From Anaerococcus prevotii DSM 20548 (lineage in GTDB: Bacteria > Bacillota > Clostridia > Tissierellales > Peptoniphilaceae), in the NCBI RefSeq assembly GCF_000024105.1, contig NC_013171.1:1050501-1114500 (forward strand): 64,000 nucleotides of DNA. Reading direction: 5' to 3'. The translations under genes and the position numbers were made by a program. The notes under the pieces are model-generated. The model ran no database searches. It saw only the letters and a list, made by a program, of their open reading frames with translations, and was not told where the DNA came from. Positions 6,606-9,464 of the stretch are shown one piece after another (within the stretch, counting starts at the first letter, position 1; each line of letters begins with the position of its first letter).

Positions 6606-6633
6606 TTGACATGAATGCCACAAAAGTTATAAT
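6606..6633 (+). promoter_or_regulatory. Sigma-A promoter of the copper operon
   Basis: A consensus TTGACA (6606-6611) is separated by 16 bases from a consensus TATAAT (6628-6633), 36 bases before the copA start. The predicted start of transcription falls at the left edge of the adjacent CsoR-like palindrome. Confidence 0.8.
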
Positions 6634-6640
6634 ATTAATG

Positions 6641-6657
6641 ACACCCCCTATGGGTGT
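6641..6657 (+). promoter_or_regulatory. CsoR-type copper operator
   Basis: The palindrome ACACCC-CCTAT-GGGTGT (6-bp arms, 5-base spacer, C/G-rich core) resembles known CsoR operators. It sits between the -10 box and the copA ribosome site, where repressor binding would block transcription. csoR is the last gene of the same operon, so the site predicts autoregulated copper induction. The match is by eye to the general pattern. Confidence 0.72.
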
Positions 6658-6669
6658 TAAGGAGGTAAT

Positions 6670-9189
6670 ATGAAAGAACGATTCGATATTAGCGGAATGA
6701 CTTGTGCTTCTTGTCAGGCTAATGTCCAAAAAGCGGTTCAAAAATTAGGAGTTAATGATGTTAATGTCAATCTCATTAGTGAATCTATGATTGTTGATTA
6801 CGATTCTGATAAGATTAATAATGACGATATTATAAAGGCAGTAGAGAAAATTGGTTATGGAGCAAGTCTTAAAGATAAAGACAGATCAAACGATGTAACA
6901 CTAAAGGAAAGCGAAGAAATGTCTACAATAAGTAGATTGAAAATTTCTTTCTTGTTTTTGATCCCACTGATGTATATATCAATGGGGCCAATGATTAATC
7001 TTCCTATACCTGGTTTTCTAGAAGGTCGAACTGGAGCAGTAAATAATGCTTTTGTTCAATTTTTGCTAGCCTTACCTGTAATTTTTGTAAATCGCAAATT
7101 TTTTGTATCAGGCTTCAAGGGACTAGTTAATAAAGCGCCTAACATGGATACGCTTGTTGCCCTAGGAGCAAGTGCTGCTACTATATTTGGTATATTTGCC
7201 ATAATGAGAATGTCTTATGCTTTAGGAATAAACGACAACCAAGTTTTAGATCATTATAGGCACAATATCTATTTCGAATCAAGTGCAACTATCCTAACTT
7301 TGATTACTTTAGGTAAATATTTTGAAGCAAGGAGTAAGGGTGAGACCAAATCATCTCTGAAACATCTTATGGAACTTGCCCCAAAAACAGCTAGGGTGAT
7401 TAAAGATGGTAAGGAATTTGAAGTATCCATCGAGGATATTAAAATAGGTGATACTATAATTGTAAGACCAGGAGAGGCAATTCCAGTTGATGGGGTTGTG
7501 ACAAAGGGCTCTTCCCTAGTTGATCAATCTGCTATTACTGGCGAAAGCATTCCAGTAAATAAAAATCCTGGCGACGAAGTAATATCTGCAAGTATAAACA
7601 AGCAAGGCTCTTTTCAATTTAGGGCCAAAAGAGTTGGTGAAAATACAACCATTTCACAAATTATAAGTCTTGTTAATGAAGCAAATGAAACTAAAGCTCC
7701 AATTGCAAGATTGGCTGATAAGATAGCAGCAATTTTTGTTCCAGTGGTAATAGTTATTGCAATTTTAACTTTTGCTATATGGGCTTATATTACAAAAGAT
7801 TTTGAATTCGCATTAAATCTTATGATTGCTGTTCTTGTAATCTCTTGTCCATGTGCCTTGGGTCTTGCTACTCCAATGGCTATAATGGTCGCAACAGGCA
7901 AGTCGGCAGAGTTAGGACTTCTGTTTAAAAATGCTGAAAGCCTCGAGAACCTTCATAAAATTGATTCCATCCTTCTAGATAAGACTGGAACTATTACAGA
8001 AGGTAAGCCTGTAGTAACTGATGTCTACACGAAAATGGATGAAGCAGAATTTATTTCTATTGCAAGAAGCATCGAGGAAGCTTCCGAACATCCTTTGAGT
8101 AATTCGATAGTAGAATATGCTAATGATGAAAACATAAGTCCTAGAGAAATCACAGATTTTCATTCTATAACAGGAATGGGACTTGAAGCAAAAATAGATG
8201 GAAAAATTTATTATGCCGGAAATATTAGACTTATGAATGAAAAAAATATTTCTGTAGAAGGCTTTGAAGATAAGTCTATAGCCTATTCCGAAGAAGGAAA
8301 AACATCCATGTATTTCGCCAATGAAAATAAGGTCTTAGGCCTAATAGCAGTTCAAGACTTAGCAAAGGATAGTTCTATTAAGGCAATAGAAAAATTAAAA
8401 GCAATGGGCTACCATATAATAATGCTAACTGGAGATAATGAGAAAACAGCCGAAGCCATTAGAAAAAAACTGGATATAGATGAAAAATATGCAGAGGTCC
8501 TTCCACAAGATAAGGATAAAGTTGTAAGAAAACTTCAAGAATCGGGTAAAAAGGTAGCGATGGTCGGAGACGGTATAAACGATGCACCTGCTCTAGCAAG
8601 ATCTGATATCGGTATAGCTATCGGTAGTGGAACTGACATAGCGATAGACTCAGCTGATGTAGTACTGATTAAGAATTCCCTATTGGATATAGTAAATTCG
8701 ATAAGATTATCTAGTAAGACTATAAAGATAATAAAGGAAAATCTCTTTTGGGCGTTTTTCTATAATATTATCCTTATACCAGTTGCAGCAGGCATCCTCT
8801 ACCCTAGATATGGTGTAACCTTAAACCCAATGTTTGCGGCCTTGGCAATGAGTATTTCCTCAGTCTTTGTATGCCTTAACTCACTAAGACTTAGGAACTT
8901 TAAGCCTGAAGAAGAAAGTGAAGAAAGTAAAGAAGAAAATAAATTAATAAAGGAGAATAAAATGAGTGAATTAAATAAAATGATTGTAAAAGTTGATGGA
9001 ATGAGCTGTCAAAATTGTGCAAAACACGTTACAGAAGCCCTAGAAGCTGTTGCAGGAATAAAACAAGTTAATGTTGATCTTGAAAATAAAGAAGCTAATG
9101 TTGAGTTTTTCGGATCAGTAGATGAAAATGAAATCTCAAAGGCAATTAGCGAAGCTGGCTACGAATACAAGGGTATCGAATACAAATAA
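6670..9189 (+). CDS. copA: Copper-exporting P1B-type ATPase CopA with an extra C-terminal HMA domain
   Basis: An 839-residue Cu(I) efflux ATPase. An N-terminal heavy-metal domain carries Cys12-x-x-Cys15 (MTCASC). Eight membrane helices are expected, with the CPC metal site at residues 393-395. The phosphorylation site is DKTGT at Asp437, the histidine-proline motif is SEHP, and the hinge is GDGINDAP. After the last membrane helix comes a charged Glu/Lys linker and a second HMA domain with Cys780-x-x-Cys783 (GMSCQNC). The C-terminal position of that domain is unusual, and it has its own ribosome site and ATG (see the separate entry). The stop codon overlaps the csoR start by one base. A strong TAAGGAGGT precedes the ATG. 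Confidence 0.97.
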   Translation: MKERFDISGMTCASCQANVQKAVQKLGVNDVNVNLISESMIVDYDSDKINNDDIIKAVEKIGYGASLKDKDRSNDVTLKESEEMSTISRLKISFLFLIPLMYISMGPMINLPIPGFLEGRTGAVNNAFVQFLLALPVIFVNRKFFVSGFKGLVNKAPNMDTLVALGASAATIFGIFAIMRMSYALGINDNQVLDHYRHNIYFESSATILTLITLGKYFEARSKGETKSSLKHLMELAPKTARVIKDGKEFEVSIEDIKIGDTIIVRPGEAIPVDGVVTKGSSLVDQSAITGESIPVNKNPGDEVISASINKQGSFQFRAKRVGENTTISQIISLVNEANETKAPIARLADKIAAIFVPVVIVIAILTFAIWAYITKDFEFALNLMIAVLVISCPCALGLATPMAIMVATGKSAELGLLFKNAESLENLHKIDSILLDKTGTITEGKPVVTDVYTKMDEAEFISIARSIEEASEHPLSNSIVEYANDENISPREITDFHSITGMGLEAKIDGKIYYAGNIRLMNEKNISVEGFEDKSIAYSEEGKTSMYFANENKVLGLIAVQDLAKDSSIKAIEKLKAMGYHIIMLTGDNEKTAEAIRKKLDIDEKYAEVLPQDKDKVVRKLQESGKKVAMVGDGINDAPALARSDIGIAIGSGTDIAIDSADVVLIKNSLLDIVNSIRLSSKTIKIIKENLFWAFFYNIILIPVAAGILYPRYGVTLNPMFAALAMSISSVFVCLNSLRLRNFKPEEESEESKEENKLIKENKMSELNKMIVKVDGMSCQNCAKHVTEALEAVAGIKQVNVDLENKEANVEFFGSVDENEISKAISEAGYEYKGIEYK
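8962..9189 (+). CDS. copZ: Candidate internal in-frame CopZ-like copper chaperone within copA
   Basis: Inside copA, AAAGGAG (8949-8955) lies six bases before an in-frame ATG (8962), which is ideal ribosome-site geometry. Initiation there would give a 75-residue protein made only of the C-terminal HMA domain, with the GMSCQNC copper site and the size of a free CopZ chaperone. Directly upstream, in the +1 frame, are tandem TAA TAA stops (8945-8950), so the stretch looks like an intergenic junction of separate copA and copZ genes. It may be a recent fusion that kept its start site, or a dual-product gene. Expression of the short form is inferred, not shown. Confidence 0.6.
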   Translation: MSELNKMIVKVDGMSCQNCAKHVTEALEAVAGIKQVNVDLENKEANVEFFGSVDENEISKAISEAGYEYKGIEYK

Positions 9190-9464
9190 TGCATGCTGAT
9201 AAGAAAAAAACTATCAGGAAACTTAAAACCGTCGGTGGGCAAATCGACGGTTTAATTAAAATGATTGAAGATGATAGGTATTGTATAGATATATCAAATC
9301 AAATTATGGCTTCAATCTCTATTCTTAAAAATATAAATAAAGAAGTCCTCCAAGCCCATCTAGAACACTGCGTATACCAGTCTTTAAATAGTGATGATGA
9401 GGAAGATATAAGACAAAAAATCGAGGAGATAGAAAAAGTTATCGATAAACTCAATAAAATTTAA
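9189..9464 (+). CDS. csoR: Copper-sensing transcriptional repressor CsoR
   Basis: A 91-residue all-helical repressor of the CsoR/RcnR family, which has no helix-turn-helix. The Cu(I) ligands appear in the right places: Cys32, His57 and Cys61 (DRYCI and AHLEHC), matching the family's C-H-C pattern. Cu(I) binding releases CsoR from DNA. The ATG overlaps the copA stop (TAATG), so the two are translationally coupled. Its predicted operator lies at the operon promoter. The metal ligands favour copper over the persulfide- or formaldehyde-sensing relatives. Confidence 0.93.
   Translation: MHADKKKTIRKLKTVGGQIDGLIKMIEDDRYCIDISNQIMASISILKNINKEVLQAHLEHCVYQSLNSDDEEDIRQKIEEIEKVIDKLNKI

Follow-up and report, generated by a model that had tools for sequence, protein, structure and literature searches.

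A conserved internal start within copA suggests a two-product gene for a copper pump and a free CopZ-like chaperone

Results

The copA locus of Anaerococcus prevotii

The window, i.e. the whole 64,000-nucleotide stretch of the A. prevotii DSM 20548 genome analysed here, contains a copA gene whose open reading frame (ORF) encodes 839 amino acids and stays open as far as the stop codon ending at 9189. The product passed the curated copper-ATPase model TIGR01511 (611.9 bits, cut-off 397) and its translation contains ISCPCALG and LLDKTGT; CPC in a membrane segment together with DKTGT marks a CopA copper P1B-type ATPase. The features of the locus, in window coordinates, are:

6606..6633, + strand: probable copA promoter (TTGACA, 16 nt, TATAAT; 12 of 12 consensus matches)
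6641..6657, no strand assigned (the scan lists the stem on the - strand): palindrome ACACCCCCTATGGGTGT, between promoter and copA start
6659..6666, + strand: Shine-Dalgarno (SD) sequence of copA, AAGGAGGT, read from the sequence
6670..9189, + strand: copA, 839-aa copper P1B-type ATPase with N- and C-terminal HMA domains (ORF, TIGR01511, Pfam)
6682..6858, + strand: N-terminal HMA domain (domain search, converted to window coordinates)
8893..8961, + strand: Lys/Glu/Asn-rich linker of 23 codons, from the last membrane segment to the chaperone start
8949..8955, + strand: internal SD AAAGGAG, duplex of -8.8 kcal/mol with CACCUCCUUU
8962..9189, + strand: internal start and proposed free CopZ, 75 aa (MSELNK...GIEYK)
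8986..9165, + strand: C-terminal HMA domain with GMSCQNC (domain search, converted to window coordinates)
9189..9464, + strand: csoR-like repressor gene, 91 aa (Trns_repr_metal, 87.6 bits)

Within copA, the motif AAAGGAG (8949-8955) is followed by the gap AATAAA (8956-8961) and by ATG (8962-8964), which is in frame with the copA start codon at 6670 and separated from it by 764 codons. A preliminary description of this DNA had placed an SD motif, a six-base gap and an in-frame ATG at the edge of the C-terminal HMA domain, and this reading is exact. The exact 16S 3'-end sequence GGATCACCTCCTTT occurs four times in the genome. In the 75-residue product, the Pfam HMA domain is complete (residues 9-68; 2-62 of 62 model positions; 64.5 bits, cut-off 24.8) and includes GMSCQNC, and relatives of solved structure comprise the CopZ chains 1k0v, 2qif, 6ff2 and 1cpz. 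We call the product CopZ-like because it scores below the NCBIfam CopZ cut-offs (NF047957, 74.6 with a cut-off of 85; NF033795, 60.9 with 91; NF033794, 55.4 with 95). The sole other HMA match in the genome is a CANC-type ORF, which adjoins an ArsR-like gene; across 11 genomes of the genus, the stronger matches to separate small HMA ORFs were read, and all 12 are of this type.

The promoter is the only site noted from a scan that found 17 sites in total compared to 12.3 (sd 3.1) in shuffled sequences, as it was the only perfect match. The palindrome 5' of copA resembles a CsoR operator and is a candidate for the operator of the copper repressor. At the other end of the gene, the csoR ATG overlaps the copA/copZ stop as TAATG (9183-9192), an arrangement found at 23 of 28 loci of the genus, and csoR is probably translated by coupling.

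Conservation of the SD and the start codon

For the genus, 30 other genomes were searched, 29 of which carry this copA with its C-terminal domain; with the gene studied here, 30 genes were read (genome G009, 82% complete, yielded a weak match only and was left out). More distant relatives were parsed in three sets and classified as fused when copA is joined in frame to a C-terminal CopZ-like domain: L004-L073 (69 parsed, 61 fused, 8 not; L032 omitted as a repeat of the gene at L073), L074-L183 (110 parsed, 84 fused, 26 not) and L210-L258 (49 parsed, 41 fused, 8 not). After removal of seven repeats, 179 non-redundant fused genes remained, reaching from the genus itself to the class and a few other phyla. 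The named relatives comprise the best 80 of at least 588, and the class loci come from matches obtained with a fused-gene query, so that these counts give no estimate of how common the fusion is. Named carriers are Acetatifactor muris DSM 23669 (L075), Hornefia butyriciproducens (L099), Ruminococcus albus AR67 (L114), Butyrivibrio sp. FCS014 (L112) and Gemmiger formicilis (L136), and metagenome-assembled ones are assigned to Treponema, Desulfovibrio, Elusimicrobiales and Coriobacteriaceae. The 'Tissierellia bacterium' at L074 is a family member with a sequence identical to locus L034 of genome G062.

All 30 genes of the genus are fused and have an ATG 15 codons before CxxC together with an SD of -8.1 kcal/mol or stronger. 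The preliminary description had named loss of the ribosome-site bases under a conserved linker as the result that would speak against internal initiation; the opposite was found, as the linkers of the genus vary in length and sequence while SD and start codon stay. Across the 179 fused genes, in which linker length ranges from 15 to 74 codons, an ATG is present in 167 boundary windows (2337 of 6126 core windows) and an SD duplex of -8.1 kcal/mol or stronger at 146 boundaries, compared to 251 of 6150 core windows of the same genes (19/1871 in the family/order set, 191/3297 and 41/982 in the class sets), all counts being taken over relatives as non-independent samples irrespective of kinship. 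With a threshold of -5.5 kcal/mol, 170 of the 179 qualify; SD energy is intermediate in 24. In the family/order set, 58 of 61 boundaries are at or below -8.1 kcal/mol, versus 19 of 1871 windows in the gene cores and 10 of 906 ATGs inside the same genes. Spacing between GGAG and the start is mostly 6-9, and the start lies 11 codons before CxxC in 108, 15 codons in 31 and 12 codons in 19 of 175 genes. Three genes combine a non-ATG start with a strong SD (L048, GTG, -14.6; L129, GTG, -11.9; L067, TTG, -9.0), which indicates that methionine itself is dispensable at the boundary. In five of the 179, the only start is non-ATG and its SD is weak, which may be chance, and four have no start codon there at all. 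Two loci (L036 and L044, in G052 and G054) encode two tandem C-terminal HMA domains, and SD and ATG are found only at the second.

Age of the fusion

All 30 members of the genus that were read carry a fused copA, as do most other genera read in the family. A tree of 163 CopA cores, built by a quick method and with many weakly supported forks, needs seven changes between fused and unfused, and so few changes point to an old fusion. That the tandem TAA marks a recent intergenic junction, now read through, is thus not supported. The comparison of copA ends in relatives that the preliminary description had called for revealed both forms: fused throughout the genus, and separate copZ genes with their own SD at L058 and L068-L071. 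The tandem TAA TAA (8945-8950) does lie in the +1 frame, as had been described, but as a fossil stop it was rejected: out-of-frame stops are no commoner than expected by chance in either shifted frame, and tandem stops in the +1 frame occur in 4 of 30 members of the genus, compared to a mean of 3.4 after shuffling of the linker codons.

Constraint on nucleotides and on protein

When the boundaries were recoded synonymously according to each gene's own codon use, the real sites were stronger throughout: in the genus, the mean was -8.99 observed versus -4.51 recoded (z -12.8), in other genera -9.94 versus -5.46 (z -10.9), and the class sets gave z values of -9.2 and -7.7. Gene by gene, the test fell below 0.05 in only 27 of 61 cases, since the words Lys-Glu and Gly-Glu already tend to be encoded by SD-like DNA. 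When linker codons were shuffled instead, values below 0.05 were obtained for 56 of 61 (family/order) and 58 of 76 (class) genes. GGAG occurs in all three codon phases (104/38/3), and its phase changed at least 25 times on the tree of CopA cores. Within the genus, the codons across the SD are AAG GAG or xxG GAG in 21 of 30 members and GGA GAA in nine; GAG accounts for only 8 of 147 Glu codons elsewhere in these linkers, yet it is part of the SD in those 21. In 147 of 149 genes, GC content is lower in the 24 nucleotides upstream of the start than in the core; where core GC is at least 0.5, the values are 0.38 and 0.59 (lower in 67 of 68), and the SD persists in these GC-rich fused genes. The internal site is thus conserved at the nucleotide level.

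RNA accessibility was dropped as a line of evidence: in all 137 of 137 cases the boundary was less structured than its gene core is on average, which follows from A-rich composition, and the region at the internal start studied here was no less structured than its own shuffles (z 0.34). As internal control, tandem N-terminal HMA domains were sought, and the parser found no gene with two.

Loss of the start and separate small HMA genes

Ten fused genes were scored as start-lost, having no start codon (L117, L122, L250, L253), only a weak SD, no stronger than -5.3 (L040, L109, L240, L243, L248) or only a TTG seven codons before CxxC (L249, -5.6), and were compared with 50 genomes keeping an SD of -7.3 or stronger. 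Separate small HMA ORFs (frame of at most 160 aa), sought with a profile from ten separate copZ genes, were among the matches listed in 10 of 10 start-lost but 15 of 50 start-keeping genomes (Fisher 4e-5, rank test 5e-6; both ignore kinship, and G219 and G192 belong to the same genus). At 55 bits or more, again among the matches listed, the counts were 5 of 10 versus 0 of 50 for frames of at most 110 aa and 5 of 10 versus 4 of 50 for frames of at most 160 aa; groups and thresholds of this comparison were chosen after earlier results, and intermediate genes were set aside. The small ORF is of another CxMC type in at least three of the ten start-lost genomes (L262, L272, L275). The small HMA gene adjoins copA in three of the ten (L276 in G358, L275 in G357, L267 in G253) and in one start-keeping genome (G193).

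Taken together, the shifts in SD phase, the recoding result, the persistence in GC-rich genes and the apparent compensation of start loss suggest that selection acts on nucleotides, and not on the protein alone, to keep an internal start in copA.

Discussion

We propose that copA of A. prevotii is a two-product gene, encoding a pump with a tethered CopZ-like domain and, from an internal start, the same domain as a free protein, and assign this reading a probability of roughly 0.88. Ribosomes starting at 6670 would produce the copper pump with its CopZ domain tethered C-terminally by a flexible linker, while others would bind the SD in the linker and start at the ATG at 8962 of the same mRNA, yielding the free 75-residue chaperone. 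A single transcript could thereby supply the pump and an independently set amount of soluble chaperone, with no need for a separate copZ gene. Translation from the ATG at 8962, copper binding by the product, transfer of copper to the pump and the proportion of the two products are what we infer from sequence conservation.

Free CopZ might alternatively arise without internal initiation on the long mRNA, either from a transcript of its own that begins inside copA or through cleavage in the linker. The linker is flexible and charged, a separate transcript would use the very same SD and ATG, and the E. coli case, reportedly and judging from the title of Drees 2017, combines differential transcripts with frameshifting. 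We consider this improbable, since no good plus-strand promoter lies close upstream (the nearest, at 7934-7961 and 8395-8423, match 9 of 12 positions each in a scan at chance level) and cleavage would require neither SD nor start codon. That the site is a relic of a fused copA/copZ pair and of no present use would be plausible in the light of the neighbouring copZ genes with their own SD in relatives, but we regard it as very improbable, as the fused state is old and the linker has nevertheless turned over completely, while the site beats synonymous recoding in every group and has moved between codon phases. Could the boundary be conserved for the protein only? C-terminal metal-binding domains of CopA are described in PMC7558416, and single-gene synonymous tests are often weak; such a reading is nonetheless highly unlikely, as it gives no protein-level reason for the codon choice in the SD, its codon phase or the GTG and TTG replacements. 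An SD-like site at a domain boundary might also slow elongating ribosomes while the membrane part or the HMA domain folds, but pausing needs no start at a fixed distance, and 158 of 175 genes have theirs 11, 12 or 15 codons before CxxC, with a spacing of mostly 6-9 from GGAG, which leaves this idea with hardly any weight. An internally initiated free CopZ beside the pump is thus the most likely reading, consistent with what the preliminary description had put forward and with the conservation of SD and start across the 179 fused genes.

The same division of labour is known from E. coli, where, as reportedly found in Meydan 2017 and Drees 2017, CopA(Z) is a frameshift product of copA. According to PMC5009743, a -1 frameshift near the 5' end releases the N-terminal domain of about 70 aa; likewise, PMC10187127 states that the chaperone is made from copA by frameshifting and that copZ is typically a separate gene. 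In both E. coli and, as predicted, A. prevotii, one copA would give pump and small chaperone, the former by frameshifting at the 5' end with release of the N-terminal domain, the latter by an internal start at the 3' end with release of the C-terminal domain. The copA-copZ pairs of Firmicutes provide the same two functions, and at L058 and L068-L071 the methionine of copZ, behind its own SD, has the same distance from CxxC as here. Unlike in these pairs, no stop intervenes in A. prevotii: the reading frame continues uninterrupted across the linker, and the domain is part of the pump as well. As for internal starts in general, the product of the one in arcB is the free phosphotransfer domain. 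In-frame internal starts in arcB, infB, clpB and clpA yield shorter C-terminal proteoforms according to start-site ribosome profiling, as set out in PMC11005335. Ours would do the same, although its function is another and it is argued from conservation across the class and not from expression. A full-text search of the open-licence literature found no report of an internal start in copA. Neither do we know of one in the pump with a C-terminal HMA domain described before. That CopA, according to PMC7558416, shares with ours an HMA-type domain at its C-terminus.

A frameshift resembling that of E. coli was looked for as well, in A runs only: copA of A. prevotii has no A run of seven or more in the 150 bases after the N-terminal HMA domain. 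At L184, L185 and L186 (G013, G030 and G003), the N-terminal HMA domain is a short ORF (76-83 aa) ending at or soon after a run of A7-A9, and the ATPase core continues in another frame; L187 (G007), a near-twin, has one more A and copA in frame. The break reflects either slippage giving a free N-terminal HMA domain or a homopolymer error in the assembly, and further frame breaks in G003 favour the latter there.

That one copper gene can yield pump and chaperone is known already from E. coli frameshifting. If our reading is true, many gut and skin anaerobes make both products by internal initiation, surveys in which copZ is counted as a short gene of its own overlook the CopZ inside copA, and one-gene-one-protein annotation hides a conserved protein. 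A testable question is then what the chaperone domain does in its tethered and what in its free form. We tentatively suggest, as a possibility we hold to be less than even, that a two-product copA is old and widespread in Clostridia and some other anaerobes, that tethered plus internally initiated free chaperone may represent a second evolutionary answer beside the frameshifting of E. coli, and that, as csoR starts at the TAATG overlap and its translation would also be fed by ribosomes starting at copZ, the internal start could set the levels of the chaperone and the CsoR repressor together.
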